A DNA stretch of 64,000 bases from an archaeon. Lineage in GTDB: Archaea; Nanobdellota; Nanobdellia; Woesearchaeales; UBA9642. Made by a program: the position numbers and the translations under genes. The DNA is taken from positions 88,776 to 152,775 of the forward strand of contig JAGVGF010000002.1 of the NCBI GenBank assembly GCA_020057295.1, written 5' to 3'. Shown piece after piece: positions 31,172-64,000 of the stretch; positions within the stretch are counted from its first letter, which is position 1; every line of letters begins with the position of its first letter. The notes under the pieces are model-generated. The model was not told where the DNA came from and did no database searches. It was given only the letters and a program-made list of their open reading frames with translations.

Positions 31172-31330
31172 ATGAGTGAGAAAATAGAAACCGTTAACAT
31201 CCGTTTATCCCCTGAATTAATTAAGATTATAGATTCCTTAATTGCACAAGGACTATATAGTTCTCGAAGTGAATTTATTCGTGATATATGTAGGAATTAT
31301 GTTCTAGAAGAGAGGTATAAGAATGAGTAA
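31172..31330 (+). CDS. Ribbon-helix-helix (CopG-type) regulator, 52 aa
   Basis: The small frame MSEKIETVNIRLSPELIKII continues with DSLIAQGLYSSRSEFIRDIC and ends EERYKNE. It is a complete ribbon-helix-helix fold: one beta strand (TVNIRLS), helix A (PELIKIIDSLIAQG) and helix B (SRSEFIRDICRNYVLEE). Such proteins bind DNA as dimers through the strand. The stop (31328-31330) overlaps the start of the next RHH gene, so they are co-translated and may heterodimerise. They head the large rightward surface-protein gene series and are candidates for its control. Confidence 0.85.
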   Translation: MSEKIETVNIRLSPELIKIIDSLIAQGLYSSRSEFIRDICRNYVLEERYKNE

Positions 31331-31652
31331 GACTCTCTCCAAAACTCGTAAGGACACAATTGTTTCTGTACGTCTGCCTAAAAGTTTAGTCGAAGAACTA
31401 AAAGATATTCAGCAAATAAATCATTTCATGGATTTAAGCGATGAGATAAGGTTTGTTGTTCGAAGATATTGTTTAAGCTTCCTAAATAGTCAGGATCAAA
31501 ATTTAACACAAGCAAAACCTCCTATAGAATTACTTGCAGAACAAAAACGTAAAGAAAAATTAATTGACGATCTTTCAAAAATTATTGAAAACTTAAAGGG
31601 AAACAAACAAACTATACCCGCTAATCAAAATCAAAACAATTCAAATGAATAA
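31323..31652 (+). CDS. Ribbon-helix-helix regulator with C-terminal helical extension, 109 aa
   Basis: Residues about 12-52 (DTIVSVRLPKSLVEELKDIQ, then MDLSDEIRFVVRRYCLSF) form a second ribbon-helix-helix domain. The DLSDEIRFVVRRY helix fits the usual S(D/E)xIRxxVRxY pattern of CopG proteins. A hydrophilic tail follows with a helix (ELLAEQKRKEKLIDDLSKII) and an Asn/Gln-rich end. It overlaps the upstream RHH gene by 8 nt and the downstream 1058-aa surface-protein gene by 8 nt, so three genes are translationally chained and the regulator is co-expressed with the membrane protein. Confidence 0.85.
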   Translation: MSKTLSKTRKDTIVSVRLPKSLVEELKDIQQINHFMDLSDEIRFVVRRYCLSFLNSQDQNLTQAKPPIELLAEQKRKEKLIDDLSKIIENLKGNKQTIPANQNQNNSNE

Positions 31653-34600
31653 AAAAACAATCATCGGAATAGGAATATTCGTTATTTTAGTTACACTACT
31701 ATTAACATTCGGATTAACTAAAACAGTAAATGCACAATCAATAATAACAAACAACAGCAATACAGCATTAAATAGCATAACATATCAATTAGATATTGCT
31801 GAGTTAAATCTTTCAAACATCAACAATATGCAGTTCGATTCAAACACTAATACAACCACCATAACTAATATTAGTAATATAATAAATTATGAATGTAGTT
31901 TAGGAATAAATAATTATACTTATCTAAATGGAGGATCAACAACAACGTTAAACGCTTTAATAAATATAATGCAATCGTTAAACATTACATTAACAGATAA
32001 TTATTATGCTTTGGCATTAAATTGTACATATAATATAACTTCATTTAACACAACCACATATATTGTTTTATATTATAATGAAACGAGCAATGATACATAC
32101 AACATTACTAATATCTCATCATATAATGTTTCATCACAAACATTCATTCCTACAATAAAAAATATTTTAGTAGATACAAGCAATCCTATGATTTTATTGT
32201 ATGCTCCAATAAATAGTAGCATATATACAAATAATTCCAACACCACTGTTACACTAAATTTCACGATTAGTGATTTATCACAAACAAACTGTACGTTGTC
32301 TTTGAACAATAATACCGATAATTTACAATCTAATATTACTAGTATTCAATATATTTTGCCTTTAGGAAATTACACATATAATCTATCTTGTATAGATGCG
32401 TTAAATAATTCAAACCTCAACAGTTCAAACTTTAAGGTATTAAGTAATGTGACACCTGTAGAAGATGTATTCTTAAACATTCAATTAACAAAACCCTCAT
32501 TTGGTTTAGGTGAGATTGGACAGTATATTATTAATGCAAATAATAATTCCAATGTTACAATAACCATTTGTCCTGTGGCTTCTGGATGGGTGCAATGTTA
32601 TGTTACTCCTGTATTTGTAAATTATACTTATCCGCTAACACAAGCATTACCTTATACTAATAAAACTGGAAAGTATATGATTCAAGCCGTAATGAATTAC
32701 AAAAATTATACTCTAAGCACCAATACAACATACGATACAGCAAATACAATTACTGCTACTATAACTGCATCAAACATTACTGTTGGTGTTGGTAGTATAA
32801 TAACATTCAATGCCGTAGCAAGTGGAGGAATTGGAACTTACTCTTACAAATGGACAATGCATGATAATACAAGATTTGATGGAACGTCCGCATATAAGAA
32901 TTACACTTCATCAGGCACTTACAAAGTGAACTTGAATGTTAATGATAGTCAGGGAAATCAATACAATACATCAATAGATGTAGTAATAAAAAATTATTAT
33001 ACACTAACCGTTGTGGTTACAGATAAAGACACAGGTTCAAGAATTACTGATTCAAAAGTAGAAGTGAATAATGATATAAGACAAACAGATAGTAATGGTA
33101 TAGCAACATTTAGACTATTAGACAATTCATATGATATATATGTTTCAAAAAACAATTACGGAGGATATGTTAATAGTGTAGGATTGAGTGCTGATCGAAC
33201 AGTATATATGAATATGTCATTCCAGGATGTTGTACCTCCAAGAATTACTTTATTAACTGATAATGATTTCGTATTCTCTCAAGATAATGTTAAATTAAAG
33301 TTTAAGGCTGATGATGCTACAAATGTTGCTTGTTCACTATACACAGCATCAATGAACGATAGTTGGTATACTCTAAAAGATTCTGGAGATAATTTACTTG
33401 CAAACACTGAATACACATTTGAGCTTACAAATTTATCATATGGAGGCTACAAGTGGCGTGTAGAATGTTTTGATACAGAAAAGAATAAAGGTGTTAGTGA
33501 AGAGAGAAAGTTTGTGATATCAGATAGTAATACAGCTCTAGTCTTACAATATACTAACAGCAATTCTGATGCCATAAATACTGCATTAGATAATCTGAAT
33601 AAGTTATCTGGTGAAGAATCAGAAGTTGCTGATATATTAACTGTACGTGAAGATTTAAAAGATTTGCTTGAAAGAATCAACAGAATGGACAAAGATATTC
33701 ATGATCTAGCTTTCAGAAGAGATTTGGATGAAAAAGGAAAACAGGACGTTCAACAAAACCTTACCCAAACCTTAGAATATATGAAATATAATACTCCAAT
33801 AAATATACAAATCAGTGATTCTAAAACTTTTGTAAAATATATCAAGGATATTGATTTAAACATATTGCTTGAAGAGTATATAAGCATAAAGAATATGAAT
33901 GTTAACAAAAAAGCATTCTTGGAATCAACTAAGAGTGTTCAATCTAAAGCAGTAATTTCTACACGTGTAAGAAGTGTGGTATTACATTATCTTGATGGTA
34001 AAACTAAAGAAATAACTTTAGTCACAAAAACTATTAAACCATCAACTTCAGATGATGAATTATTGTTTGAAAATTCTAAAACTATAACTTTTGTAGAAGT
34101 CGTTCCTAAAAGTATTGCATCATCTATGAAACAATTGAACATGTTAAATAAAGAGTACACGGTCCTCAAAGATGATCCTGTTATAGAATTTGCCCCAAAT
34201 ATTAAAACTATAAATTATTATATTGATAAAAAGGTTGATGCTCAAGATTTCCAAAAAGTTGATACTGTAATAATTGATAAAAATATTAATGCTTTAAGAT
34301 CTCCTACAGGATTGGCAATACTTGGTGTTGATAATATTTCTGATATTCCTATAGATGGTCAAACTATAATGATAGTACTAATTTTAGTGTTGTTAATGTT
34401 CTATTTGGTTTTACATTTCGAATTAATAGATAAATTACGTAGTATAGGATTTGGATCAAAAAAGAAAATCACGTATGTTAAAGTTTTAATTAACGATGCT
34501 CTCGATTATTTGGAGGCTGAAGATTATGAGAAAGCAGCATTCGTATATAGAGAGATAAAATTATCTTATGAAAGTTCAAATAGTTTTGTTAGAAAAAAGG

Positions 34601-34821
34601 TATATACTGAATCTTATGAATTATGTAATAAATTAGATCTAAAATATACTGAATATTTACTAGAACATATAGAATCTTATATTAGACAGGAGAATAAAAC
34701 TGCTGCAATATTAGAATTTGATAAGTTAGAAAAAACTTACAATAGATTAGATGACTCTTATAAGGCTAGAATTAGTGATAAATTCAAAAATGCCTTAGAA
34801 AAAATAAAAACAGTACTATAG
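31645..34821 (+). CDS. Large membrane-anchored surface protein with PKD-like and Ig-like domains, 1058 aa
   Basis: The N-terminus is a signal or anchor helix (MNKKTIIGIGIFVILVTLLL). An Asn/Thr/Ser-rich region full of N-glycosylation sequons follows, then a PKD-like domain (about 385-445, GGIGTYSYKWTMHDN, SGTYKVNLNVND) and a carboxypeptidase-regulatory-like domain (about 450-525, VTDKDTGSRITDSKVEV, TDSNGIATFRLLDNSYDIYV). After that come an Ig-like domain (about 530-625), a helical segment (about 640-730) and further beta-rich sequence. A C-terminal membrane helix (about 905-928, TIMIVLILVLLMFYLVLHF) is followed by a 125-aa helical cytoplasmic tail with two TPR-like units (LEAEDYEKAAFVYREIKLSY). 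The extracellular receptor-like body joined to an inside helical tail suggests interaction with cytoplasmic parts of the next gene's system. I know no named homologue. Confidence 0.75.
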   Translation: MNKKTIIGIGIFVILVTLLLTFGLTKTVNAQSIITNNSNTALNSITYQLDIAELNLSNINNMQFDSNTNTTTITNISNIINYECSLGINNYTYLNGGSTTTLNALINIMQSLNITLTDNYYALALNCTYNITSFNTTTYIVLYYNETSNDTYNITNISSYNVSSQTFIPTIKNILVDTSNPMILLYAPINSSIYTNNSNTTVTLNFTISDLSQTNCTLSLNNNTDNLQSNITSIQYILPLGNYTYNLSCIDALNNSNLNSSNFKVLSNVTPVEDVFLNIQLTKPSFGLGEIGQYIINANNNSNVTITICPVASGWVQCYVTPVFVNYTYPLTQALPYTNKTGKYMIQAVMNYKNYTLSTNTTYDTANTITATITASNITVGVGSIITFNAVASGGIGTYSYKWTMHDNTRFDGTSAYKNYTSSGTYKVNLNVNDSQGNQYNTSIDVVIKNYYTLTVVVTDKDTGSRITDSKVEVNNDIRQTDSNGIATFRLLDNSYDIYVSKNNYGGYVNSVGLSADRTVYMNMSFQDVVPPRITLLTDNDFVFSQDNVKLKFKADDATNVACSLYTASMNDSWYTLKDSGDNLLANTEYTFELTNLSYGGYKWRVECFDTEKNKGVSEERKFVISDSNTALVLQYTNSNSDAINTALDNLNKLSGEESEVADILTVREDLKDLLERINRMDKDIHDLAFRRDLDEKGKQDVQQNLTQTLEYMKYNTPINIQISDSKTFVKYIKDIDLNILLEEYISIKNMNVNKKAFLESTKSVQSKAVISTRVRSVVLHYLDGKTKEITLVTKTIKPSTSDDELLFENSKTITFVEVVPKSIASSMKQLNMLNKEYTVLKDDPVIEFAPNIKTINYYIDKKVDAQDFQKVDTVIIDKNINALRSPTGLAILGVDNISDIPIDGQTIMIVLILVLLMFYLVLHFELIDKLRSIGFGSKKKITYVKVLINDALDYLEAEDYEKAAFVYREIKLSYESSNSFVRKKVYTESYELCNKLDLKYTEYLLEHIESYIRQENKTAAILEFDKLEKTYNRLDDSYKARISDKFKNALEKIKTVL

Positions 34822-34856
34822 TTAATATTTTTTTGAAATGTTATGTGAAATAAAAT

Positions 34857-37800
34857 ATGAATCGAAAAATTGATGATTTAATAGAGAAGCGTAAGGACAA
34901 AAAGAATTTATTAGCTATTGCTCTAATATTTTTTATAGTTTTAGGTTCAATATTTGGATTGATATTGTTGTCAACATTTATTGGCTACGTTTTTGAAAAT
35001 TATATCGCTGGACAGGCAGGTTATGTATATAATGTTGTTCTGGAATATCATGAATGTGCTACACTATGGTCTGGAGTTTATGGAGCGGCTGTAATGGTGT
35101 TGGGATATAATAATCAAGATGATGTAATCGTATCCTCATGTGGGATGTATGACCCGAATTTCCTGTTTAAATGTTTGCAACCAAATGCTGAACATGTATT
35201 GATGGCATCATTAACTCCTCCTGATGCTATAGATTTTAACACTTTACAACCAGCTACTGCTTTAGATGTAGATAATTATTTAGGTGTTGATGCACTAAAT
35301 ATGATGTCTGGCAGCAAAACATTTTTACAAACAGTATCTTACACCATTGATAGTACACAATATAATGTTCCTGGAACGTATACTTATAACAGTAGTAAAA
35401 ATCCTTCATTTGATTTAGGTATATTAAAGGATGGTAATGGTTCTCTTATATTTATTACTCATATAAATGCAAATTTTAGTAGAGGATTCAATAATAAATT
35501 ATATAATTATCAGATGATACTTCCTGTACGTAATAATACTAATCCTGATTATTATTTTTTTACAGATCCAAGTTATGTTTGTCCAGCTGGAGAAGGTACT
35601 AATCCTAACTCTGGATATGTTATTGGTAATGTTACTAGTAATACTGGGGAAAGATTATCAGGAGTAATAGTTGATATCGCTGGTAAAACTACAGCAACAG
35701 ATATCAATGGATTTTATAATCTTACAGCATATGGCGGGAATTATTATATCTATGGTATAAAGACAGGATATCAAGCATATGTCAGCAATATCACTGTATT
35801 ATCTGGCAACCTTACTGTTCATGATTTTGTTATGATTCCTGCAACTATCCCTAATCCTAATACTGGTCCTGGTGTTGGCCCTGGTGTTGGTCAAGGTCCT
35901 GGTATTGGTCCAGGCCAAGATGTTGGTCCGGGTGAAGCTCCAAGAGTTCCAATTGTTGAACAGCCAAAAAAAATTGAAGGTATAGACTATATTATATCTA
36001 TATCAAAAATTGATAGAAAACTAATTATAGGAAATTTCCTACAAGAAATTATAGCATTTTATAGTTATAAGAAAAACACTGCAAGTTTACAGTTTAGTAT
36101 AGAAGATGATAATAGTACTAATAGTACTGATTTCATGTTATCCAAACTTATAAAATTAGATAAACCATCAATGGCAGTATTCCCAAATACAAATGATCAA
36201 TTAACATTAACAGTTTTCGGGGATGGAATTCCTGGAGTATATAATGGATCATTAGTTATTGATGGAGATTTAAAAGAAAAGATACCTATACGAATAGAAT
36301 TATTAGATAAAGAAAGATTGCCTGTGCAAGCATTATTAATAACTTTAGATTTAGATAAACGTAGCATATTCTCTAGTGATAAATTAAAATTTAAGACAGA
36401 TTTACATAATTTATTGTCAGATCAATCTTATCCTGTGTCTTTACAATTTACGATTCAGGATAGTAAAGGAAAAACTGTATGGGCTGATTCTGCTAATGTT
36501 TATGTTCAAACATCATTTTCATTACTAAAATCTGCACAACTTCCAGATAATATTCCTACAGGCGATTATGTGTTAAGAGTTACGGCTAATTATTTAGGAT
36601 TATCTGGTGGTTCAAGTACAGTATTTAGTGTGGTATTGCCATTTTACGAAGTAATATTCTGGGGATTAAAACTATGGATATGGGCTGCAATAATATTAGC
36701 ATTACTAACCATTGGACTTGCATATTTCTTAATTAGAAGATATATCCAAAGCAAAAAGAGATATGCATTCAAGCTTGAAATGTCAGAACTACCGAAACCT
36801 GGACCAAGATCTGCATGGGTTGGTAAAGTTGCAGAGACAGAACATAAGACATACTTCGATTTAGAACAATTTAAAGTACACACTATTGTTGCAGGAGCAA
36901 CTGGTGGTGGTAAATCTGTAGCTGCACAAGTAATTGTTGAAGAAGCACTTTTAAAGAATGTTGCAGTCATAGTGTTCGATCCAACAGCGCAATGGTCTGG
37001 AATGTTAAGAAAATGTAATGATAAATTTATGTTGAGTTTATATCCTAATTTTGGAATGAAGCCATCAATGGCCAGAGCATTTAACGGTAATGTTAAACAA
37101 ATAACTAATGCGCTTGAATTAATTGATATTAAAAAATATATTAAGCCTGGAGAAATTCAAATATTAGCATGTAATAAATTAGATCCTAAAGATATTGATA
37201 TATTTGTTGCCAACAGTATTAGAGAAGTATTCCACGCAAATTTTGGTGAAGCACCAGAACTAAGATTATTATTAGTTTACGATGAAGTACACAGATTATT
37301 ACCTAAATTCGGAGGATCTGGAGAAGGATTCTTACAAATAGAAAGAGGATGCAGAGAATTCAGAAAATGGGGTATTGGAATATTAATGATTTCACAAGTA
37401 TTAGCAGACTTCGTTGGACAAATTAAAGCAAACATAAACACAGAAATACAGATGAGAACTAGAGATGAAGGAGATTTAGGAAGGATTAAAGAAAAATATG
37501 GTGTAGAAGTATTACAAGGCTTAGTTAAAGCTAGTGTAGGTTCTGGAATGGTAGAAAATCCTACATATAATAGGGGTAGACCTTATTTCGTAGCATTCAG
37601 ACCATTATTACACAATACACAAAGATTACCAGATGAAGAATTGGAAAAATACAATAAATGGAATGAGATAATTGCAGATATGGGATATCAAATAGAACAA
37701 TTAGAAGACTTAAAACAAGATGTATTCGATCTAAAATTACAGTTAAAACTTTCCTTAGATAAGGTTAAATCTGGAAATTTCAACATGGTAGAAATATATT

Positions 37801-38750
37801 TACAAGAAGTAACTCCTAGATTAATTAAACTTTGGGACAAATTAGGAAAGAAACCTAAGAAGAGAGAAGTAAAAACTGTAGACTTAAATGCATTAAAAGA
37901 AGAAATGCGTAAGGGAGAGGAAGAACGTAAGAAGGCTGCAGCACAGGAAAAGAAAGATCATCCAGAAGGCGAAGCTGCAAAAGCTGAAGAGAAAAAAGTC
38001 TTAAAGTATGATTATGTTGTTGATATTAAAGATAATTTAAATTTCAGTAATGGTGTTGCAATAGCAAGTTTACAAGAATTATCTGATGTAATGCCAAATA
38101 TTACTGGGCCAACACTAAAACATCATGTTGGAAAGGACAAGAACGAAATTGCAGATTGGGTTAGAGATAAATTTGGTGATGTTGAACTTGGAGAGAAATT
38201 ACGTGTTTGTAAAACTACAGAAGAATTTGTCAAAGTAATAACAGAAGATAAATCTAAAAATAATAAACCATTTACACCAACAAAATCAGGAGCTGCACCA
38301 GTAGCTGTTCCACCAACTCCATCTGTTACAGCGTCTCCTATAATTTCATCAGTTCCTATAACTCCACAAATTAATCCTGATACAGGAGAAGGTGAAAGTG
38401 TAGCATGGAACGATATAAAGCCAAAACTTAAATCTTTGAATAGTGACGAACAGATAGCATTATTAGAAAAATCTGTAAAAAAATATCCTCAAGATATCAA
38501 TATAAAATTCCCATTAGCATTATTACATCATAAAACAAAAGATTATGACAAAGCAGAAAAAATGTATAAGGAAATACTAGAATTATATCCGAAAAATACT
38601 AAAGCATTATTCTACCTTGGTGGATTAATGAAATCTAAAAAGAGTTATGATGATGCACTAAAATATTTTAATATATATCTTGAATTAAAAAAGAATGATT
38701 CAAAAGTTAAAGACTTAATAAAACAGATTGAAGAAAAAAATAAGAAATAG
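34857..38750 (+). CDS. Membrane-bound HerA/FtsK-family ATPase with extracellular region, KNDFANW-type module and TPRs, 1297 aa
   Basis: Order of parts: membrane helix (about 20-47); extracellular domain starting AGQAGYVYNVVLEYHECATL; a carboxypeptidase-regulatory-like domain (about 253-327); a Gly/Pro linker (about 334-365); Ig-like sequence; membrane helix (about 598-622). Then the ATPase follows with Walker A GATGGGKS (about 680-687), Walker B LLLVYDE (Asp809, Glu810) and the HerA-type sensor region ISQVLADF...NTEIQMRTRDEGDL. A charged coil comes next, one module with HHVGKDKNEIADWVRDKFG (about 1060-1130) and C-terminal TPRs (about 1183-1290). HerA/FtsK hexamers move DNA or protein. Two membrane spans and an outer domain are not typical of HerA; conjugation or secretion ATPases and FtsK are the nearest analogies. 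A protein-secretion or surface-assembly motor is my inference. Confidence 0.82.
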   Translation: MNRKIDDLIEKRKDKKNLLAIALIFFIVLGSIFGLILLSTFIGYVFENYIAGQAGYVYNVVLEYHECATLWSGVYGAAVMVLGYNNQDDVIVSSCGMYDPNFLFKCLQPNAEHVLMASLTPPDAIDFNTLQPATALDVDNYLGVDALNMMSGSKTFLQTVSYTIDSTQYNVPGTYTYNSSKNPSFDLGILKDGNGSLIFITHINANFSRGFNNKLYNYQMILPVRNNTNPDYYFFTDPSYVCPAGEGTNPNSGYVIGNVTSNTGERLSGVIVDIAGKTTATDINGFYNLTAYGGNYYIYGIKTGYQAYVSNITVLSGNLTVHDFVMIPATIPNPNTGPGVGPGVGQGPGIGPGQDVGPGEAPRVPIVEQPKKIEGIDYIISISKIDRKLIIGNFLQEIIAFYSYKKNTASLQFSIEDDNSTNSTDFMLSKLIKLDKPSMAVFPNTNDQLTLTVFGDGIPGVYNGSLVIDGDLKEKIPIRIELLDKERLPVQALLITLDLDKRSIFSSDKLKFKTDLHNLLSDQSYPVSLQFTIQDSKGKTVWADSANVYVQTSFSLLKSAQLPDNIPTGDYVLRVTANYLGLSGGSSTVFSVVLPFYEVIFWGLKLWIWAAIILALLTIGLAYFLIRRYIQSKKRYAFKLEMSELPKPGPRSAWVGKVAETEHKTYFDLEQFKVHTIVAGATGGGKSVAAQVIVEEALLKNVAVIVFDPTAQWSGMLRKCNDKFMLSLYPNFGMKPSMARAFNGNVKQITNALELIDIKKYIKPGEIQILACNKLDPKDIDIFVANSIREVFHANFGEAPELRLLLVYDEVHRLLPKFGGSGEGFLQIERGCREFRKWGIGILMISQVLADFVGQIKANINTEIQMRTRDEGDLGRIKEKYGVEVLQGLVKASVGSGMVENPTYNRGRPYFVAFRPLLHNTQRLPDEELEKYNKWNEIIADMGYQIEQLEDLKQDVFDLKLQLKLSLDKVKSGNFNMVEIYLQEVTPRLIKLWDKLGKKPKKREVKTVDLNALKEEMRKGEEERKKAAAQEKKDHPEGEAAKAEEKKVLKYDYVVDIKDNLNFSNGVAIASLQELSDVMPNITGPTLKHHVGKDKNEIADWVRDKFGDVELGEKLRVCKTTEEFVKVITEDKSKNNKPFTPTKSGAAPVAVPPTPSVTASPIISSVPITPQINPDTGEGESVAWNDIKPKLKSLNSDEQIALLEKSVKKYPQDINIKFPLALLHHKTKDYDKAEKMYKEILELYPKNTKALFYLGGLMKSKKSYDDALKYFNIYLELKKNDSKVKDLIKQIEEKNKK

Positions 38751-38781: not shown

Positions 38782-38812
38782 GATAACACATCAATTGAGA
38801 GAAAAATAAAAT

Positions 38813-40039
38813 ATGAGTAAACTTTCAGAAATCACAAAACCAGAGAATAAATTCTATACTGTAGATGGTCAATCATTAGTAATATTACAAGATTTAGTGA
38901 ATTATTTATTGATTTGTGATGAAGATTTATATGCATATCATGTTAATGATACTAAGAATGATTTTGCAAATTGGGTTAGAGAAGTATTGGTTCATCCAGA
39001 TTTATCAGAATCAATGATGAAATGCAAAAATGTTAAAGAATGTAGAAATATTTTATTAGAATTCTTAAAAATATTAGATAATAACTCTTCATCCATAAGT
39101 AAAGAGAAGAATTTTTACACTTATGACGGTATTAGATTAAGGAATCTACACGAATTATATTATTATATTAATAATTCCGATGAGCACGCGTATAATATGC
39201 ATGTTAATTCAGAAAAGAATGATTTTGCTAATTGGATTAATGATGTTTTATTATTTTCTAAATTAGCCGTACAATTAAGAGAGATAAAAGATCGTGAAGA
39301 ATTTCTACATACTTTAAAACAATTTTTAAAAGATAATTTAAGTTATAATGTGGATAATCATAAAGATGTTGCTGACTCTGAAAATAGAAATGTTGAAGCA
39401 ACTGTTGAAAAAGACATAGAAAAAAAGATAGAGTCTAAAAAATTATTTATCGAAAAACCTAATATCGAAGAGTCTAAACTTCAAGAGCCTGTTGCGGAAT
39501 CTAAAGTTTCAGTCGTAAAATCTGACTCGGTAAGTATCTCTAATCCTATAGAAAAAGTTGTAAAAATTCAAAAAGTGGAAAATGCTATAAATCTAAATAC
39601 TAAACTACAACCTATTCCAGAAGAACCAGAGCCAGAAAATAAAGATAATCAAACAATAGATATAAGTAAGTTTAGACAATTTACAGATGAAGAACTCGAA
39701 AAGTTCGTAAATTTTTCAAGACATGAAACTGTTGATACTGTTAACATAAAGGTCGAATATTTAAAATCCGTGCTTCAAGAATTGAAAAATATGATTAAAG
39801 ATTTGAGAAGATCAGAAAAAGATCCATTGGTTGCAGATTTGCTTGCTAGGGCTATAGCTCCGAAAATAGATTATTACGCATTAACTAAAAGCGTGGATGA
39901 TTACAATTATATTATTACTTCAATGAAAGAGATACAGCATGAGATTGAAGAATGTGACGTTCAAAAACATTATAATATTGCTGAAGAAATATTGAAAGAC
40001 TTGAAACTTCAAGGAATAGCTATGAAGAAAGCATTATAA
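38813..40039 (+). CDS. Soluble protein with two KNDFANW-type (DUF5752-like) modules and a helical C-terminus, 408 aa
   Basis: Two copies of one module of about 80 aa occupy residues about 14-90 and 101-180. Each begins FYTxDG and contains HVNxxKNDFANWIxxVL followed by a helical ending. The same module is present in the C-terminal part of the upstream HerA-like ATPase and in the protein at 41232. Residues about 190-285 are a charged, low-complexity linker. The rest is helical (LEKFVNFSRHETVDTVNIKV, EYLKSVLQELKNMIKDLRRS). There is no signal peptide, so it is cytoplasmic. I believe this corresponds to the Pfam family of unknown function DUF5752, but could not check. By shared module and synteny it is likely a partner or adaptor of the ATPase. 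Confidence 0.75.
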   Translation: MSKLSEITKPENKFYTVDGQSLVILQDLVNYLLICDEDLYAYHVNDTKNDFANWVREVLVHPDLSESMMKCKNVKECRNILLEFLKILDNNSSSISKEKNFYTYDGIRLRNLHELYYYINNSDEHAYNMHVNSEKNDFANWINDVLLFSKLAVQLREIKDREEFLHTLKQFLKDNLSYNVDNHKDVADSENRNVEATVEKDIEKKIESKKLFIEKPNIEESKLQEPVAESKVSVVKSDSVSISNPIEKVVKIQKVENAINLNTKLQPIPEEPEPENKDNQTIDISKFRQFTDEELEKFVNFSRHETVDTVNIKVEYLKSVLQELKNMIKDLRRSEKDPLVADLLARAIAPKIDYYALTKSVDDYNYIITSMKEIQHEIEECDVQKHYNIAEEILKDLKLQGIAMKKAL

Positions 40040-40095: not shown

Positions 40096-41151
40096 ATGTT
40101 TTGGTTTAAGAAAAAGGAAAAAGAAATAACTCCGCAAGAAGAATCTGCTGATAGTGAGGATGATAGTTCTGGAGAACAGAAACCTGCTATTAGTGGCAAT
40201 ATAGAAGCTGAGTTAACTAAGATAAAATCCTCTCTTGAAGCACTTAATGAAGTTAGAAAAGCTAATTCTGATCAATTTACACGTATTAGTGAACAGATAG
40301 GAGAATTACGTGGCGCTTTAATGGATACTAACAAAGCTGTTGGTACTATAGAAGTAGCATCCACAAAAGCTATTGATATGGTAAATTCTGTTCAACCTGA
40401 TAAATTAATGATTGAAGTTAGAAAAACAGACAGTAAAGTTGAAGCGTTAAGAGCTAATATTGAAGCTAATGAAACAATAATGAAAGATATAATGAGAGAA
40501 ATGAAAGAGATGCGTGCACAAATGGGTTTCTATAAAGGTGTTGATCAAGTTGTTAAGATGAATAATGAAATTAAACAAGAATTAATTGACATTAAAAAGA
40601 CTGAAGGTTTAGTTGGTAAACATGCTGATCGTGTAGAAACTATATTTGTAGAGGTTGAGAAGAAATTTTATGATTTCGAGAAATTTAATGAAGCTGTAAA
40701 AGAATTAGATAGATCTTTTAAGAAAATTTCTTCAGATTTTGATAAGATAAGGGTGGGTGTTGATGAGAAAGCCGATAAAAAAGAATTTGTTAAAATGGTT
40801 GATAAATTTGGTGACTTCGAAAAACATACCTCAAACATACTGAAGTTACTTGATCAAAAATCTAAAAACACACTCGTAGAATTGAATGCATCATTTGATG
40901 AATTAAAGAAACAACTTGAAGGTAATTATGATAAAAAATTAGATGTTAAAGGTCTTAAGATTGATGATGCTCCTGGAGCCTCTCTAGGCACTGGAACTCC
41001 TGTAGACCCTGCATTATCAACTTTAAGTACTGAAAGTACTAAGAAAAGTGAGTCTGTAGCTTCAACTGACAAAGCGTCTGCTGTTAATAATTCCTTAAAT
41101 GGTGCTGTTGATAAAGTTAAAGGTATGTTTAGTGGATTGAAAAAATCCTGA
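40096..41151 (+). CDS. Cytoplasmic coiled-coil protein, 351 aa
   Basis: The start is secured by an excellent SD (GAGGTGA, 3 nt before ATG), with a TATA-like AGTATATAAAC at about 40051-40061. After a short MFWFKKKEKE head and an acidic segment, residues about 30-285 are long heptad-type helices (EAELTKIKSSLEALNEVRKA, ELRGALMDTNKAVGTIEVAS, VKELDRSFKKISSDFDKI). The protein ends in a Ser/Thr/Ala-rich tail and a short amphipathic helix (VDKVKGMFSGLKKS). There are no membrane segments. It lies between two genes encoding KNDFANW-type modules, so a scaffold for the ATPase complex is plausible. The partial gene at the window end begins similarly (MFELFKK). I recognise no named family. Confidence 0.7.
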   Translation: MFWFKKKEKEITPQEESADSEDDSSGEQKPAISGNIEAELTKIKSSLEALNEVRKANSDQFTRISEQIGELRGALMDTNKAVGTIEVASTKAIDMVNSVQPDKLMIEVRKTDSKVEALRANIEANETIMKDIMREMKEMRAQMGFYKGVDQVVKMNNEIKQELIDIKKTEGLVGKHADRVETIFVEVEKKFYDFEKFNEAVKELDRSFKKISSDFDKIRVGVDEKADKKEFVKMVDKFGDFEKHTSNILKLLDQKSKNTLVELNASFDELKKQLEGNYDKKLDVKGLKIDDAPGASLGTGTPVDPALSTLSTESTKKSESVASTDKASAVNNSLNGAVDKVKGMFSGLKKS

Positions 41152-41750: not shown

Positions 41751-41792
41751 TTTCCAAAATATTTAAATGTACGAGTAGTTATTTTGTTCTTA

Positions 41793-43172: not shown

Positions 43173-43212
43173 TCGTGCTGTATATTGTTTTGAAGATTTA
43201 GATGATAAAAAT

Positions 43213-55128: not shown

Positions 55129-58100
55129 TGAATATACATTTGCCTGAGTATCGGAAGAAGAATATAATACTTGCTGAAACACTTAAGAATACATCTTTAT
55201 TTGTATTCTTTGTGACTTTATTATTTTTAATAGTCACTCCCTCAGTTACAAGTATTCCGATGATGAGTTTTGACAAAAATTATTATGTAACAAATGATGT
55301 TGTTAGCATATTAACAAAAGATCCTTCTCCATTGACTATATCTGGTTCATTAACTCTTGAAGTTTCAATAAAGGAAGATACTAATTATTATTTTAAATAT
55401 CTTGGATCTGTTAATGAGATTATATCATTTATTCCCACACAGTCTGGGGAATATATTTTTAGATTATATAATGAAAATGGAAATTTAATTGATGAAAAGA
55501 GTTTCCTTGTCTATGATAAAAGTGTCGATTCGTGTGCAACTCATAAACTAGGATCTCAAATATTGATTGATTTAGAAGAATACGCTTTTGATTTAGGATC
55601 AAAACTTCCTTCGGAAATAGAATTAATATATTCAAATGCATTGTCAACTAACAAAATAGTTTATAATGGCGGGATAACTCCACAGATATATTATACTCCT
55701 AGTATTATTGGAAAATACTCGTTATACGCTGACGGAATATATCTTGCTTGTTATGACATAATAGATGATTTCGCAATAGAAAATTCTAAGATAATACACT
55801 CTACAAATGAAAATTTAAACAATATTACTTATTTAAATAATCAAATCAGTAATCAAACTAGCAATAGTATGAACAAAACTACTTTTATTAATGGATTAAA
55901 TATTTCTCTTATCTCAAACCAGTATGATTCAAAAAACACTTCTTCAATTGTTATAGATCTTAATAATTCGCTTATTCAGTCAGAAACAGGAAGATTAAAG
56001 AAAAAAATTATTCTATTCAAGATAAAAAATAGTCTAAACGAAAGTTTGAACGCTGATACTTTTGTTTATGAGAAAGAAAAAATCGTTGGTACAATTCAAA
56101 ACACTAATTCAAATAACAAAGATTACGCTTCGAATGTAAAAGATAATATTTTAGAAAACAATTTATTATTAAATACGAGGATTTCTGTTATTGATTATAC
56201 TGCAAACACTTCAATTTCTAATAATGCTTACACTCCTGATTTTCTCGTTATTAATGATACAAGCGCGAGTTTACAAAATGCATCACTTGACGCAGATATA
56301 GAATTTGTTTCTGGAAGTGTTAAGAAAATAAATTTCAAAAATTTGGAATATAAAGAAAATATGGAAGTAGGAGTTGATGAAGTTACTGAAAAATTATCTT
56401 CTAATAAATTATTGGAAAAATCAGAAAAAAAAGAGTTGAAAGCTTACGCTGTAAATCTTTATGATTTGAATTTTACTGCTGCTTCTTTTACAAGTATTGC
56501 TGTAGGAACAGAATTGTGGAAATGTAAAGATTGGAATTTTACGACACAATCATGCTTTGGAACATGGAGTAAATTAATGGATATTATTCCTGGTCAAGAA
56601 TATAATGTAAGTTTATTCCCTGGAGATCCAGGATTTATTGAAACATTTGATGTAAATGTAGCAATAGATATAGATATTCTTGCTCTTGATAATAACACTG
56701 TGGTTCTAGCATGGATAAAGAATGGAACAACCGTAACCGGAAATTTTGAAATATGGAATACTAATGGATCCATAATTGTTAATGATACAACATTTGATGC
56801 AGGAATGGATACTCAAAGTCGAGTTTCGCTTGATTTAATTAATACTAATGATTTTATAATTGCTTCAATTGATGGTTCAACAAATATTTCAAATTTCTAT
56901 TTTTATAATCGTACAGGCAGTATGATTCAAAGTGCAACAACAATTAGTGCTAATGTTGGAGATTTTAATGATTTATCTGTATGTCAATTGGGCGATAGAT
57001 TTATTTATTCTTATATTGATGCAAATCCTGCACAGTTTGATGGTTCATTTCAAATAGTGAATAACTCTGGAAATTTTATAGGTACAATAACTGATGTTGA
57101 TACAACAGTTACAACAACTACTGCTCTACAAAACTTTGTATCTTGTGCTGCAATTAATATTACTAACTGGGTATATTTATACTATGATGTTACATCATCA
57201 GATGTAACACTTAATGCACGTACAAATACTGGAACTAATGTTGTTCTAACTGATTTAAATGCTAATGTAGGTACAACATCACAAGTTGCCGTCGCAACAT
57301 CAAGAAATGAATATATTGCGAATTTATATTATAATTCCGTTGCTGCAACTCAAGATGTAATATTAAATATACGACAATTGAATGGCGCAGTTCTTACTAA
57401 TATTGCAACAGTTACTCCTGATGCGACAGCTGGCGCAAATATTCGTCTGGATATTGCAGAAATTGATGCTTTAGGAACCAGCTACTTTGTTCCGACGTGG
57501 TATGATGCAGGAGATACAACAATAAAAGCGGCAGTGTACAATGAAACCGGAGGACAAATAACTGCTCCATTTATTGTTACAACCACACCTAACACCGGAT
57601 ATAGAATTGTTGCAGTTGCAGGATATAATTCTAATGCAGAACTCGGACTTTGCAATGGAACATTTGTAATTGCATATACAAATAGTAGTGGAAATGCCAT
57701 ATTTAATAAATATTTAATTAATGGATCTCAATGGAATGGAATTTGTCCTGATGTAACGCCTCCAACTGTCAATCTAACGTATCCTTCAAATGATTCTATT
57801 GTCGAAAATAATAATATTTCATTTAATTTCACAGTAATTGATGATAGAGATGTTGTACTCCCTAATTGTAGTTTATATACAAATTTCACAGGAAATTTCA
57901 TAATTAACAAAACAATATATAATGTAACTTCTGGAATAGAAACATCAATTAATGTCACAAATATCGATGATGGAAAATATATTTGGAATATTAGATGTTA
58001 TGATAATTCATCAAATAACGCTTTTGCCATAAATGCTCCAAACAATTTTACGTTGTATATTAACAAAAATATTCCCTCAATAACCAACCCTCTAATAAAT

Positions 58101-61100
58101 AGAACTGTTTTAAATCAAAGTAATTACGTGCAACTTAATGTGACAATTAGTGATAGTTTTGGAATAAGCAATGCATTATTAACGATGTTATATCCTAATG
58201 GTACAAAAATAAATTATACTCTTAGTAATTCTGGAAATAATTATTATTATAATTTTAATAATACTGTTCAATTAGGGATATATAACATTACTTTAGTTTG
58301 GGCAAATGACACTTTAGGACAATCAAATCAAAATAACACGTTGATTTTATCTTTTAATGTTACTGCAAGCCCTCCGTCGGATTTCAATCTTTTAGCCCCT
58401 ACGAATGCAACAGTTTCCACTAATCTAATTCCGAATATGAATTGGCAGCAAACAACTGATGAAACATTTGCAAATTACACGTTAATTCTAGATAAGGATT
58501 CAACATTTGCAACTCCAGATTATACTTATGCAATTTCTCCAATAACAAATACTTCTTACATATTAGGATTTGCACTTGATGTAAATTCTGTATATTATTG
58601 GAGAGTTATAGCATACGATATTTTTGGAAATAGTAAAAATTCAACAAACGATTTTATATACATCACAGATAACTCAGGCCCACTTATTACTCTAAACATT
58701 CCTGAAACTAATTCTTTTGTACTTATGAGCAATGTGTTATTTAATTATACTCCGATTGATGCAAATACTATTTCGAATTGTACATTATATACAAATGCTA
58801 CAGGAACATTTTCTCCAAACCAAACAAATTTTACTATTGCAAATACTCTTCCTAATTATTTATCTATGAACTTAAATGACGGATATTATTTATGGAATAT
58901 TTTATGTTTTGATCAAGTTGGAAATTATAAATTTTCAAATAATAATTTTACATTAAAAATTGATACTACTCCTCCTAATGTTACAATACTAAATCCTCAA
59001 AATAATACTTATGAAAATAATACTAACAATGTGTTATTTTATGGAAATGCAACAGACGTAATGACTGGTGTGGACAATTGTTCTCTAATAATAAATAACA
59101 CTGTTAGACAAACCAAATCCGTAACTGAAGGAATAGTTTTTAATTTTACAGAATTTGTTTCTAATGGTAATTATGTATGGAACATAAATTGTACAGATTC
59201 AAATGGATTTATTGGAAGTTCAGTTAATTATTTTATCAATGTAAGTGTCGTTGATACTAATCCTCCACTTATACAATTGAATACTCCGACAAACAATGAA
59301 TATATTAATACCTCGACAATAATATTTAATTATACTGTAGATGATGCCTCAGGAATAGAAAATTGTTCTATTTTTATAGGTGGAATATTAAATTCTACAA
59401 ATTATACTGTTAGTAATCATCAAGATAATTTATTTACTATTTCAGAATTTACTTTCGGAACAAAAAATTGGCGTATAGCGTGCTATGATAATACTACAGA
59501 AAGAAATTATCGTCTAAGTTCTACAAGAAATTTCATTGTAGATTTAACAAATCCTGTTGTGACATTAAATATTCCAGGAAATTCAACAACTCCCTTATAT
59601 CTAAATTACTCGACTATAGAATTTAATTATACTCCTAGTGATGCAAATCTTTATTCTTGCGCATTATATGCTAATTTTACAGGATCATTTATAGAAGAAC
59701 AAATAAATTTAACTCCAACAAATTCTCAAAATAATTATTTTACTCAAACAATTAATGACGGTAATTATGCTTGGAATATTTTATGTACTGATTTATCATC
59801 AAGAAGTAGTTTTGCTTTACAAAATTATTTAATATTAGTTGATACACATGCTCCTGATTACTCAAATATTAATGTTTCTCCATATTCTAATTCGCCGTAT
59901 AATTCATCAAAAAAATATTTCTTTAATATTACTTGGACGGATAATTTTGAAATTTCTCAAGTTATTTTTGAATCAGATATTGATTCGTATGCATTATATG
60001 GTATTTCTGGAAATTTAACAAATTATACAATTAACAGTTCTGACTTAGGAAGTTCAAAAAATTATAGTATTAATTTTACTAATATTGCTGCAGGAAATTA
60101 TGTTTATACATGGTATGCAATAGATGCTGCAGGAAATTTAAATAAGACCGAGCTTTTAACTTACAATGTTTCGCAAGAAAATTCTAGTGTGAATTTATTA
60201 ATTAATGGCTCAGATGCCAATTTTAGTATTAATGAAGGAAATTATGTTAATTTAACAGGAACATTATTAGTTCCATTAATAGGAGTAATAGATTTGTATG
60301 TGGGTGAATCATTAATAAATTCAGGAATTGCTCCGATTTATAATATTACATTATTTGAAAATCCGGGTATATATAATGTGACTGCATTTTATAATTATTC
60401 TCAAAATTATTCTTCAAGTTCTGATACACATTTTGTTATTGTGAGTGATATAAGTTCTCCGCTAATAACGTTAAATGTTCCCATAACTAATTCTCCAATA
60501 GCTTCAGGAGAAATAACTTTGCAGTATATTGTGAATGATAAATCCGATATTGCTAATTGTAGTTTATATATCAATGGAACATTAAATCAAACAGATAATT
60601 CTATTACTAGAAATGTGACGCAATTCTTTGTAGTTTCCTTACCCCAAGGAAATTACACCTGGACTGTAGATTGTTATGATAATTCTTCAAACCATAATTA
60701 CAATATTTCTACTACATGGATATTCAGGGCACTTGACGCATCAGTCATTAATCTAGTCGTGTCTCCATTAGAATCACAATATGAAATAGTAGAAAATGCT
60801 ATAATCGAGATAAATACTACCGGGCAATTTAATGACACATTAAACACTAATTTTACAGCTGATATAATATATGGAAATACTTCCCTTCCTTGGTGGAATA
60901 CGAGCTTTAAGTATAGAAAGAATCTGTTATTTACAGAAAATTATAATAATTCAAGAGATGTGACTATGGATGTAAATATAACAGGATTAAGCGCATTAAT
61001 AAATAATTGTACTACTCAAACAAGAATTGTCGAGATTGTTATATATAACGGAACGATAAATCAATCTATTATTCCATTTGAAATTCTTTCAGGAGATGAT

Positions 61101-63581
61101 AGTAATAATTGTTTTGTAAGATTTAATGTAAATATATCTGCACTTCAAAATAATCAAACAAGATATCTAATATACTATGATAATACAAGTACAACCTCTG
61201 CTACTCAAACAGTTCCATTAAAGGGAATAAATATTCAAAGAGATACTGTTTCTGCAACAGGAGCTACTCTTACTGTCGGCATTACTAGTGCAAATCGTAG
61301 TAAATCTTTCATTTTATTTACTTCAAGAGTTGGTTCAACAGGACCAAATCAACACGAGATAACCAGTGATATGCTTATTGATACTCAGATAAGATTCGAG
61401 AGATATCTTGGCACTACTGCTGCTAATATTTATTGGCAATTAATAGAAGGTTCAGATATTAATGTTCAAAGAGGATTGACTTCTTTTATAGCTACAGACG
61501 CAAATATTAATGTAACTGTAAACTCTGTTAATTTATCAAATTCATTTTTGATAATTAATGGACGTGTTAATTCTGGAACCGCAGGTCAAGCACCTAGAGG
61601 AATATTTGAAGGACGATTTATTAATTCAACAACAATTTCTCTATCAAGAGGAATTACGGGAACGGCAGCAATTGCGGGATGGCAAGTTGTTGAATGGTCT
61701 AAGACTAATGTTCAATCAAATAATTTAACTTTAACTGCTAATCCTGTTATTGTTAATATTAATCCTGTAGTTGTTAATAGATCTTTTTTAATAATATCTA
61801 GAACCACTACAGGAGATACTGGTGCAGATACCAATTATGTTTTAGGATATATAATAAATTCTACTGCAATAAATATTTCACGTGTTGGAACTACAGGTTC
61901 TACAGTTGTTACATGGTTTGTTGTTGAATTACCTAATGAATATTATATTCAATCAGGTCAAGTCTCTACAACAAATTCTGTAAACCAAGCAATAACTTCT
62001 GTGGATATGTCACAAACTTTTAATTCAGAATCTTGGTCTTCTACTCAGACAGGAACAACTTATACTAATGCAATGATGACTTCTTTTTTGACGAATTCTA
62101 CTAATATGAATTATACAAAACAAACCGCAGTAAATACAAATGTTATAGGATGGTTTGCAATACAATCAAGAGATCCACAATATTCTATAGATGATACTCA
62201 TAAATTTATAACTCGAGAATCAAATGTTACTGGAGCCCTCGGAACATATAATTTGGTTTGGAATACTGCTAATCAATCATTTGGAAATTATTCTGTTGTT
62301 GTGACAGCAACAAAAGCGAATTATACTACCGCATATGATTATGGAACATTTGAATTAATACCTGATCAAACTCCCCCAAATGTTACTCTTTTAACTCCAC
62401 TAAATGCTACGGTCTCTGGATCGGGATATTTTAATTTTACTTATGTTCCATTTGATTTGACTCTCGCAAGTTGTACATTATATATGGATATAAACGGGAT
62501 TTTTGGACCTCAAGCTACAAATCTTAGTCCAATAAATAATGCCTCAAACACTTTTTCTTCCATCTATGTTGGTGCGGGATTCTTTAATTGGAATATAAAT
62601 TGTACTGATTTATATAATAATTCAGGATTCTCTCCTTATAATTATACTCTTAATATTACTGGACCAGACTTGGTTATTACAAGAGATGATATATGGTTTA
62701 GCAATGATTCGAGATTAGAATTTGGAAATATAACCTTATTTGCAAATATCACAAATCAAGGGTTGAGTCCAGCAAATAGATCATTCATTGTACAATTTTT
62801 TAGAGGAGATCCTGATACTACAGGAATTCAAATCGGATCGAATATTACAATAATCAACATGACTGTCGGAGAAGTTATAACAATAAACACTACATATTTA
62901 TTGACTTCTGGGTTAAATAATATTTTTGTGAAGTTGGATTCAAATAATTTATTAAATGAATCAGAAGAATCTAATAATAAAGCAAATAATAGTTTAAATA
63001 TTGGACTATATCAATATTATTTTGGGAATGTGTCACGAAATTTTGTATTCGGATCTCCTTCTGGAAATTTAACTGTATTCTATTCAGAAGTTAATAGTAC
63101 TCCTAATGGCTACTTATTTATAGCAGATGCAGATAGTGTCTTTTCGTTCGCAAATCTACAAGCATTGTCTAGAAATATAAATAATAATTCTGTAAATAAT
63201 GATTTTTCTGATTTGGATATATCGTTGAATAGTACTGGATCTTCCGGCTCTATAAATGAAGTGTGGACCAATAATACAGATTCTCCTTTGCATGTTGATA
63301 TAATTAATTTAACTTCAAAAATAATAAACGATGTTCCTTTTATAAATAGCACTACGAATAGTAGTTTTGAAACAGGCATATTATGGGATACTAGTGATGA
63401 TTTGTCATTAAACTTACAATATGATCCCACAGATAAAGAAGATGTCGTATTTGTTACTAAAATATCGACACCAATGATTGGAAGTTATGGTACATACAAT
63501 TACGAGTTGAAAATACCTTCCAACTTAAGATCTTATTCCGGTAGCGTTAATATGGTAACATTTTATTATGAATTGAAATAA
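55128..63581 (+). CDS. Giant secreted surface protein, paralogue, 2817 aa
   Basis: The ATG overlaps the stop of the first giant gene (TAATG), so the two are coupled. A signal-type helix lies at about 22-42 (LFVFFVTLLFLIVTPSVTSI). The same layout as the upstream protein recurs: LWKCKDWNFTTQSCFGTWSK (about 463), a propeller-like repeat block (about 508-870) and Ig-like repeats (from about 877). A DUF2341-like domain (WWNTSFKYRKNL, about 1921-2030), one CARDB-like domain (about 2513-2620) and the shared C-terminal domain ending YELKIPSNLRSYSGSVNMVT follow. Unlike its partner it has four tandem repeats of about 75 aa at about 2052-2350 with FWVVE-like endings. No membrane anchor at the end. Paired paralogues may form a hetero-assembly or offer alternative binding faces. 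Confidence 0.85.
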   Translation: MNIHLPEYRKKNIILAETLKNTSLFVFFVTLLFLIVTPSVTSIPMMSFDKNYYVTNDVVSILTKDPSPLTISGSLTLEVSIKEDTNYYFKYLGSVNEIISFIPTQSGEYIFRLYNENGNLIDEKSFLVYDKSVDSCATHKLGSQILIDLEEYAFDLGSKLPSEIELIYSNALSTNKIVYNGGITPQIYYTPSIIGKYSLYADGIYLACYDIIDDFAIENSKIIHSTNENLNNITYLNNQISNQTSNSMNKTTFINGLNISLISNQYDSKNTSSIVIDLNNSLIQSETGRLKKKIILFKIKNSLNESLNADTFVYEKEKIVGTIQNTNSNNKDYASNVKDNILENNLLLNTRISVIDYTANTSISNNAYTPDFLVINDTSASLQNASLDADIEFVSGSVKKINFKNLEYKENMEVGVDEVTEKLSSNKLLEKSEKKELKAYAVNLYDLNFTAASFTSIAVGTELWKCKDWNFTTQSCFGTWSKLMDIIPGQEYNVSLFPGDPGFIETFDVNVAIDIDILALDNNTVVLAWIKNGTTVTGNFEIWNTNGSIIVNDTTFDAGMDTQSRVSLDLINTNDFIIASIDGSTNISNFYFYNRTGSMIQSATTISANVGDFNDLSVCQLGDRFIYSYIDANPAQFDGSFQIVNNSGNFIGTITDVDTTVTTTTALQNFVSCAAINITNWVYLYYDVTSSDVTLNARTNTGTNVVLTDLNANVGTTSQVAVATSRNEYIANLYYNSVAATQDVILNIRQLNGAVLTNIATVTPDATAGANIRLDIAEIDALGTSYFVPTWYDAGDTTIKAAVYNETGGQITAPFIVTTTPNTGYRIVAVAGYNSNAELGLCNGTFVIAYTNSSGNAIFNKYLINGSQWNGICPDVTPPTVNLTYPSNDSIVENNNISFNFTVIDDRDVVLPNCSLYTNFTGNFIINKTIYNVTSGIETSINVTNIDDGKYIWNIRCYDNSSNNAFAINAPNNFTLYINKNIPSITNPLINRTVLNQSNYVQLNVTISDSFGISNALLTMLYPNGTKINYTLSNSGNNYYYNFNNTVQLGIYNITLVWANDTLGQSNQNNTLILSFNVTASPPSDFNLLAPTNATVSTNLIPNMNWQQTTDETFANYTLILDKDSTFATPDYTYAISPITNTSYILGFALDVNSVYYWRVIAYDIFGNSKNSTNDFIYITDNSGPLITLNIPETNSFVLMSNVLFNYTPIDANTISNCTLYTNATGTFSPNQTNFTIANTLPNYLSMNLNDGYYLWNILCFDQVGNYKFSNNNFTLKIDTTPPNVTILNPQNNTYENNTNNVLFYGNATDVMTGVDNCSLIINNTVRQTKSVTEGIVFNFTEFVSNGNYVWNINCTDSNGFIGSSVNYFINVSVVDTNPPLIQLNTPTNNEYINTSTIIFNYTVDDASGIENCSIFIGGILNSTNYTVSNHQDNLFTISEFTFGTKNWRIACYDNTTERNYRLSSTRNFIVDLTNPVVTLNIPGNSTTPLYLNYSTIEFNYTPSDANLYSCALYANFTGSFIEEQINLTPTNSQNNYFTQTINDGNYAWNILCTDLSSRSSFALQNYLILVDTHAPDYSNINVSPYSNSPYNSSKKYFFNITWTDNFEISQVIFESDIDSYALYGISGNLTNYTINSSDLGSSKNYSINFTNIAAGNYVYTWYAIDAAGNLNKTELLTYNVSQENSSVNLLINGSDANFSINEGNYVNLTGTLLVPLIGVIDLYVGESLINSGIAPIYNITLFENPGIYNVTAFYNYSQNYSSSSDTHFVIVSDISSPLITLNVPITNSPIASGEITLQYIVNDKSDIANCSLYINGTLNQTDNSITRNVTQFFVVSLPQGNYTWTVDCYDNSSNHNYNISTTWIFRALDASVINLVVSPLESQYEIVENAIIEINTTGQFNDTLNTNFTADIIYGNTSLPWWNTSFKYRKNLLFTENYNNSRDVTMDVNITGLSALINNCTTQTRIVEIVIYNGTINQSIIPFEILSGDDSNNCFVRFNVNISALQNNQTRYLIYYDNTSTTSATQTVPLKGINIQRDTVSATGATLTVGITSANRSKSFILFTSRVGSTGPNQHEITSDMLIDTQIRFERYLGTTAANIYWQLIEGSDINVQRGLTSFIATDANINVTVNSVNLSNSFLIINGRVNSGTAGQAPRGIFEGRFINSTTISLSRGITGTAAIAGWQVVEWSKTNVQSNNLTLTANPVIVNINPVVVNRSFLIISRTTTGDTGADTNYVLGYIINSTAINISRVGTTGSTVVTWFVVELPNEYYIQSGQVSTTNSVNQAITSVDMSQTFNSESWSSTQTGTTYTNAMMTSFLTNSTNMNYTKQTAVNTNVIGWFAIQSRDPQYSIDDTHKFITRESNVTGALGTYNLVWNTANQSFGNYSVVVTATKANYTTAYDYGTFELIPDQTPPNVTLLTPLNATVSGSGYFNFTYVPFDLTLASCTLYMDINGIFGPQATNLSPINNASNTFSSIYVGAGFFNWNINCTDLYNNSGFSPYNYTLNITGPDLVITRDDIWFSNDSRLEFGNITLFANITNQGLSPANRSFIVQFFRGDPDTTGIQIGSNITIINMTVGEVITINTTYLLTSGLNNIFVKLDSNNLLNESEESNNKANNSLNIGLYQYYFGNVSRNFVFGSPSGNLTVFYSEVNSTPNGYLFIADADSVFSFANLQALSRNINNNSVNNDFSDLDISLNSTGSSGSINEVWTNNTDSPLHVDIINLTSKIINDVPFINSTTNSSFETGILWDTSDDLSLNLQYDPTDKEDVVFVTKISTPMIGSYGTYNYELKIPSNLRSYSGSVNMVTFYYELK

Positions 63582-63738
63582 TATACTAGCTAAAACGATA
63601 AATAAATTAAAGATATACAAATATATATAAATTTTTAAATAAACAATAACATAAACATATAAAATGAGGAGAGGTGAGTATTGAATAGGAATTGTTCTAA
63701 CACTATTGCTATTTTAGCTAGGTTTACCTATTATTATC
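63582..63738 (+). promoter_or_regulatory. Promoter and leader region of the last gene, with a 21-codon upstream frame
   Basis: ATATATATAAATTTTTAAAT (about 63621-63645) provides TATA boxes. GAGGTGAGTATTG at 63671-63683 is an SD plus a TTG that opens a 21-codon frame (63681-63746) starting MNRNCSNTIAILARF and ending at a TGA that overlaps the ATG of the next gene. The same GGTGAGTATTG occurs before the winged-helix gene at 42486-42496. Confidence 0.45.
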
Positions 63739-64000
63739 ATGTTTGAATTATTCAAAAAGACGGACGAAGAAAAAAATTTAGATAAAAATGCGGATAAGCA
63801 AAAATTAGTAATGAGTAGTTCTTCAGATACCGCTATGGCATCTTTAGATCCTCCTTCAACATTGCCTGAATTAGCGAAAGACTTGTACGAGAAAGAAGAG
63901 GAAAAGAAATCAACTGTCAATGAACCTGTTGAATCTGTAAAACTTTCCGAATCAAAGATTCCCAAAATTTCTATGAACAATATTCCTAAAATTACCTTTC
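63739..64000 (+). CDS. Partial gene, cytoplasmic protein start (MFELFKK type), cut by window end
   Basis: The frame from ATG 63739 is open to the window edge (87 codons). It starts MFELFKKTDEEKNLDKNADK and continues with a Ser/Pro-rich and acidic/basic linker (PPSTLPELAKDLYEKEEEKK, ESVKLSESKIPKIS). There is no signal peptide. The head resembles that of the coiled-coil protein at 40096 (MFWFKKKEKE), so it may be another cytoplasmic member of the surface-system series. No domain is visible in the part present. Confidence 0.6.
   Translation, partial: MFELFKKTDEEKNLDKNADKQKLVMSSSSDTAMASLDPPSTLPELAKDLYEKEEEKKSTVNEPVESVKLSESKIPKISMNNIPKITF

Follow-up and report, generated by a model that had tools for sequence, protein, structure and literature searches.

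The window is a 64,000-nucleotide (nt) stretch of archaeal DNA (C2:88776-152775; window positions count from 1) from a 1.20-Mb, ~100% complete genome in six contigs. The source organism is Woesearchaeota-related (Nanobdellota, DPANN) and probably host-dependent or episymbiotic. From position 31172 onward the window carries a gene set that includes a receptor-like membrane protein (REC), a membrane HerA-like ATPase (ATP), a coiled-coil protein (CC) and two giant secreted Ig-array proteins (G1 and G2). This gene set is real, conserved and more than a chance neighbourhood, and we consider it rather probable that the locus encodes a split SPEARE-type contact or transport machine. All genes listed by an earlier, sequence-only reading (the RHH pair, REC, ATP, the module proteins, CC, SMALL, WH and the giants) are present on a single strand at the coordinates given there. 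The set runs past the window end, where MOD3 and six small S proteins (S1-S6) lie. The features are as follows (aa, amino acids; TM, transmembrane segment).

31172..31330, + strand: RHH regulator 1, 52 aa, CopG-like (Pfam RHH_1, E 1.4e-7); 8-nt overlap with the next gene
31323..31652, + strand: RHH-like regulator 2, 109 aa, first gene of the motor unit (homologues match RHH_1)
31645..34821, + strand: REC, receptor-like membrane protein, 1058 aa (PKD, E 4e-9; signal/TM and second TM at ~907)
34857..38750, + strand: ATP, membrane HerA-like ATPase, 1297 aa (DUF87, E 2.6e-10; TPR; TMs at 18 and 608)
34962..35591, + strand: S-domain of the ATP ectodomain, residues 36-245 (hhalign to S proteins; S profile match)
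36819..37886, + strand: HerA-type ATPase domain (alignments: Walker A GATGGGKS, Walker B LLVYDE, REFRKWG motif)
38001..38378, + strand: DUF5752-like module within ATP, residues 1049-1174 (blastp match to MOD2, E 6e-11)
38813..40039, + strand: MOD1, 408 aa, with a pair of DUF5752-like modules (Pfam DUF5752 in two stretches, E 2e-7)
40096..41151, + strand: CC, conserved cytosolic coiled-coil protein, 351 aa, EQxGELR motif
41232..41750, + strand: MOD2, 172 aa, with a single DUF5752-like module (Pfam, E 6e-4; blastp matches to MOD1, 1e-13, and MOD3, 1e-14)
41784..42173, + strand: SMALL, single-TM anchored protein, 129 aa (TM at 21)
42510..43172, + strand: WH, winged-helix-like regulator, 220 aa, first gene of the giant unit
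43117..55128, + strand: G1, giant secreted Ig-array protein, 4003 aa (signal/TM at the N-terminus only; Big_13, Big_7, CARDB)
54568..55125, + strand: S-domain, C-terminus of G1 (hhalign to S proteins; AF2 model)
55128..63581, + strand: G2, second giant secreted Ig-array protein, 2817 aa, paralogous to G1
63021..63578, + strand: S-domain, C-terminus of G2 (alignment; profile match, E 6e-101)
63739..64000, + strand: start of MOD3, 389 aa, DUF5752-like C-terminus; MOD3 itself spans C2:152514 to C2:153683, past the window
C2:154001-161253, just beyond the window: S1-S6, six tandem small secreted proteins

ATP is predicted to cross the membrane twice, with an ectodomain of ~560 aa outside and the motor inside. 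Its profile matches the solved HerA structure 4d2i (E 4e-11), HerA being the closest relative among solved structures, and alignment shows the P-loop, Walker B and central motor motifs conserved as in translocases. ATP shares the central DUF87/HerA motor domain with the HerA of HerA-NurA DNA-end processing but differs in being anchored in the membrane and in carrying a large Ig/S ectodomain, and no HAS-barrel or NurA match was found in the cluster. A fold search with the full ectodomain matched just generic Ig/FnIII proteins, such as RbmA. VirD4-type coupling proteins have two N-terminal TMs flanking an external loop, followed by a cytosolic motor; ATP has this same order, together with weak sub-threshold matches to the VirB4, VirD4-TraD and CedB ATPases, from which it differs in the size and content of its external part (S-domain plus Ig). 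Membership of the type IV secretion/VirB4 group was rejected: PF03135 was absent from ATP at E 0.1, no channel genes were recognised in the cluster, and HerA is the closest relative among solved proteins. A related explanation is a DNA transfer machine, in which a HerA/VirB4-like pump would take up DNA or exchange it in a conjugation-like way, comparable to Ced/Ted import or type IV secretion, with the giants as mating adhesins. We regard this as quite unlikely: some of the closest solved HerA proteins are DNA translocases and there are weak matches to TraD, CedD and TrwB models, but the Ced and TraD matches fall far under curated cut-offs, and the cluster yielded no recognisable relaxase, VirB6/8/9/10-like channel or pilin.

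The sequence-only reading missed two features, a locus for a fused paralogue of ATP in the same genome and a domain common to the ATPase, the giants and the S proteins. The paralogue, G3 (C4:13992-38159), is an 8055-aa protein in one open frame, and its C-terminal part is 42% identical to ATP over 673 aa, a match that spans the Ig-TM-ATPase part. G3 consists of an N-terminal signal/TM, an ectodomain with beta-helix, NEW3-type and also Ig domains, a TM at 7321, the ATPase and a DUF835 tail. It matches DUF87 and ResIII, the latter in line with the old "restriction" reading of the SPEARE C-terminus. The gene that follows G3 after 23 nt encodes a 398-aa coiled coil with homology to CC (E 5e-28). 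Further along, at C4:44035-58244, there is a second one-direction run of large secreted or membrane proteins (1611, 787, 1090, 210, 262 and 775 aa), of which the 1611-aa and 1090-aa proteins are paralogues.

The shared domain, here called the S-domain, occurs in three settings: at the N-terminal end of the ATP ectodomain, in the last ~185 residues of G1 and G2, and in S1-S6. G1, G2 and giants from other genomes all end in this one domain of ~185 residues, which hhalign relates to the S proteins with 98.7% probability (E 2.7e-16). Residues 36-245 of ATP align with the S proteins at 99.5% (E 9e-23) and with the giant C-terminus at 96.9%, while REC, used as a control, scored 2.5%. Plain HMM profile searches independently agree: across the whole 1.2-Mb genome the S profile picks out S1-S6 and ATP alone (the latter at E 5e-8), and a profile of the giant C-terminus matches G1, G2 and S proteins alone. 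Sequence searches of Pfam, NCBIfam and the PDB returned nothing significant for the S-domain. The AF2 model of the G1 S-domain is confident (pLDDT 90.9, pTM 0.86), that of the ATP S-domain reaches pLDDT ~80-90 over most residues, and the two models share the same order of strands and helices. Fold searches against the PDB and viral models gave best E values of 0.09 and 0.02, with TM-scores of at most 0.27 among the matches listed, and the modelled fold is likely new by this comparison.

Were the S-domain the link between separate giants and the motor, S-domain giants and S proteins would be expected to accompany unfused ATPases but not necessarily fused ones. We surveyed a sample of 279 Nanobdellota genomes with contig breaks; the statistics treat genomes without correction for relatedness and the classes are set partly by frame length, so that p values are descriptive. 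Strong ATPase relatives were found in 53 genomes, 36 with an unfused S-domain-type locus (including four with split ATPase frames, placed in this class by hand) and 12 with frame-end ATPases, two genomes having both. The fused-type frames run from 2103 to 12283 codons, and the largest holds two stops. Genomes with the unfused ATPase usually have S-domain giants (27/36, odds ratio 32, p 4e-17), S proteins (33/36, odds ratio 323) and REC (34/36, odds ratio 396). Among the genomes with fused ATPases only, giants occur in 2/10 (odds ratio 1.2) and S and REC in 1/10 each (each about 1), while CC is present in 9/10 (odds ratio 50). These counts offer a rule that divides the family: unfused motors accompany S-domain giants and fused ones do not. 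CC adjoins both kinds of ATPase and follows the family as a whole, being found in 47 of the 53 ATPase genomes; conversely, 47 of the 50 CC genomes have the ATPase (p 7e-43), and 41 of 44 pairs on the same contig lie within 6 kb. The combination of unfused ATP, REC, CC and S is present in 32 genomes of 16 families, most of them also with S-domain giants, and S and REC occur together in 40 genomes with only five exceptions. Around unfused ATPases the genes keep the order RHH-REC-ATP-MOD-CC, and in many loci WH and giants follow downstream. A tree of the ATPases gathers the unfused Nanobdellota sequences, except for a partial one (G105), into a single clade (98/96), and the fused sequences branch off outside that clade.

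Some genomes encode tandem ATPases, a short one with intact Walker B and a long S-domain-bearing one in which the Walker B Glu is replaced by Gly (DGIH for DEVH). The variant reads YDGIH in G206 (L091) and FDGIH/IDGIH in G022 (L088/L089) and G172 (L090). At three loci the changed long ATPase adjoins a short intact one, and in G014 (L076/L077) a changed ATPase stands beside CC. These variants suggest that mixed, heteromeric rings with an inactive docking subunit are possible. G126 encodes, as a gene of its own, a 765-aa S-domain membrane protein beside a 2958-aa fused protein. The S-domain on the changed partner would also suit a mechanical device without transport, in which the ATPase ring only pulls, releases or unfolds the giant adhesins and so controls attachment, the giants being bound to the motor covalently or, putatively, through S-domains. 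Against it stand the translocase-like P-loop, Walker B and central motor motifs, and we know of no HerA-family member that works in this way; we hold the mechanical explanation to be very unlikely.

Relatives of the motor also occur outside the Nanobdellota. In the phylum of an Altiarchaeales genome the ATPase was found in 10 of 29 genomes, with CC adjacent in four of seven loci examined. Altiarchaeota loci L096 and L133-L140 encode a membrane HerA-like ATPase of minimal size (~690 aa) near CC; two Altiarchaeota loci also have, upstream, an Ig-type protein whose TM is C-terminal. The minimal ATPase and CC are perhaps the ancestral core.

Several points weigh against a split SPEARE-type machine. 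No S-domain was detected with the Altiarchaeota ATPase and CC, and the domain may be a later addition to that core. In nine of the 36 genomes with unfused ATP no S-domain giants were detected, some of these genomes being fragmentary, and related genomes inflate the odds ratios. Association of S-domains with one another is deduced from co-distribution only, movement of any substrate by the ATPase is hypothetical, and the machine as a whole is predicted from sequence. Finally, S-domain giants occur without ATPase or CC in 15 genomes. The sequence-only reading had proposed co-occurrence as neighbours as its check, and this largely holds, for ATP with CC and for unfused ATP with REC, S and giants; the 15 genomes show that the dependence is not strict. 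They also agree with a surface-protein island, in which the S-domain would only sort secreted proteins or hold them in a surface lattice and the adjacent ATPase would have a job of its own, and the six S paralogues do resemble a surface coat. We nevertheless find such an island unlikely: in this genome the S-domain is confined to this locus and is present on the ATPase itself, S and REC are coupled as described above, and fused relatives hold giant and motor in a single chain.

The covalent fusions and the shared domain strengthen the link between ATPase and giants, and the split SPEARE-type machine that we favour could work as follows. ATP would assemble as a ring, its HerA relatives being hexamers, and S-domains would bind one another outside the membrane. 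The giants would dock by their C-termini on the ATPase ring, or on a collar of S proteins around it, and their Ig arrays would extend to the partner cell; in the fused paralogue the bond between giant and motor would be covalent. CC may link the ring to the cytosol. Contact with a host, through the giants or REC, would then license ATP-driven movement of a protein or nucleic acid substrate through the assembly, or force on it. Kinship with HerA favours, by analogy, a nucleic acid cargo, and published SPEARE proposals favour effector export. A bolder form of this reading is a distinct Nanobdellota contact and transport machine with a HerA-type ring, a collar of new-fold S proteins and interchangeable giants attached by C-terminal S-domains, of which SPEARE is the fused form; we put this forward tentatively and with some doubt.

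The sequence-only reading presented the system as a candidate undescribed one, which is in part contradicted by the SPEARE architecture of the fused relatives (PMC6642349, PMC10266531); the core idea is partly known. SPEARE proteins of Nanohaloarchaeota reach 8553 aa and were described with a "restriction" C-terminus (PMC6642349). A later study took this region for a VirB4/TraG-like ATPase, on a protein of 9409 aa, and reported a second VirB4-like ATPase downstream (Reva et al., PMC10266531). Similar intracellular sequences had been noted in Woesearchaeota and Altiarchaeales (Hamm et al., PMC6642349). By these published descriptions the likeness lies in giant extracellular repeats, a TM near the C-terminus and a conserved cytosolic P-loop ATPase. 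The ATPase region is present in both ATP and G3; a single giant with a C-terminal-side TM describes G3 but not ATP, which has 1297 aa and separate giants. According to Hamm et al. (PMC6642349), the SPEARE ectodomain carries one laminin-G domain or more. None was found in G3 at E 1e-3, nor in ATP or G1 at the thresholds used, and beta-helix, NEW3 and Ig domains are seen instead. The window locus further differs in that motor and giants are separate genes, putatively joined by the S-domain and accompanied by REC, CC, S proteins and regulators. The SPEARE of Reva et al. is followed by a VirB4-like ATPase, whereas here the motor matches HerA and its next partner is a coiled coil. A search of genome contigs gave at least three relevant loci, with no nanohaloarchaeal SPEARE among the matches listed. 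The literature covered lacks preprints and most subscription journals, and the split form may have been described earlier. Cryo-electron tomography of DPANN episymbionts shows a large structure bridging to the host in the passages available (PMC11420986, PMC11104419), and the available passages on DPANN attachment organelles name no organelle genes; those organelles belong to different lineages, and the window locus is known from genes alone. Coiled-coil proteins beside type IV pili (PMC11291902) were set aside as a parallel, because CC here adjoins the ATPase in a locus that has no pilus genes.

Neighbouring genes in RHH-RHH-REC-ATP-MOD1-CC-MOD2-SMALL overlap or are separated by less than 90 nt, and after a 336-nt gap come the overlapping WH, G1 and G2. 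The layout suggests units each headed by regulators, with transcript borders placed from spacing alone. MOD3, S1-S4, an ArsR-like helix-turn-helix gene, S5-S6 and more secreted proteins follow beyond the window. RHH-like regulator 2 is recognisable solely through its homologues, which lie directly upstream of REC in 14 compared loci. REC has an Ig/PKD ectodomain, the TM at ~907 and a helical cytosolic tail, and its homologue adjoins ATP in 16 compared loci. WH has homologues in six other compared genomes, mostly directly upstream of a giant; SMALL had none in the neighbourhoods compared. The open frames of G1 and G2, of 12 and 8.5 kb, are not due to chance, and the close relative G119 retains similar giants (3910 and 2815 aa). 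G1 and G2 are paralogous over several segments and the last ~400 aa. The first ATG of G1 overlaps WH by 56 nt (43117-43172), and a start ~31-41 codons later, directly ahead of the hydrophobic signal, is more plausible.

The DUF5752-like module that the sequence-only reading saw in ATP, MOD1 and MOD2 is indeed common to them, but it was over-weighted there and is not a diagnostic link. It also occurs elsewhere in the genome (C5:18543-19973, C5:28185-29999, C3:112989-113977, C1:209872-210828; L021, L022, L023), and its many, mutually unrelated carriers there include an acetate kinase (at the N-terminus), an ABC-2-type permease (at the C-terminus), a signal-peptidase-like protein and, next to a glycogen-synthase-like gene, small proteins. 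The module looks like a general regulatory or interaction module and, given this genome-wide occurrence, was rejected as the glue of the system.

How DPANN archaea attach to and exploit their hosts is a long-standing question, and the SPEARE proteins, giant motor-adhesins by which such archaea may grip or tap other cells, were known mainly as lone giants. The locus described here adds a defined gene set, a putative docking domain of apparently new fold, and domains of ~185 aa that can be tested without culture, as well as a division of the ATPase family by its fused or unfused state.
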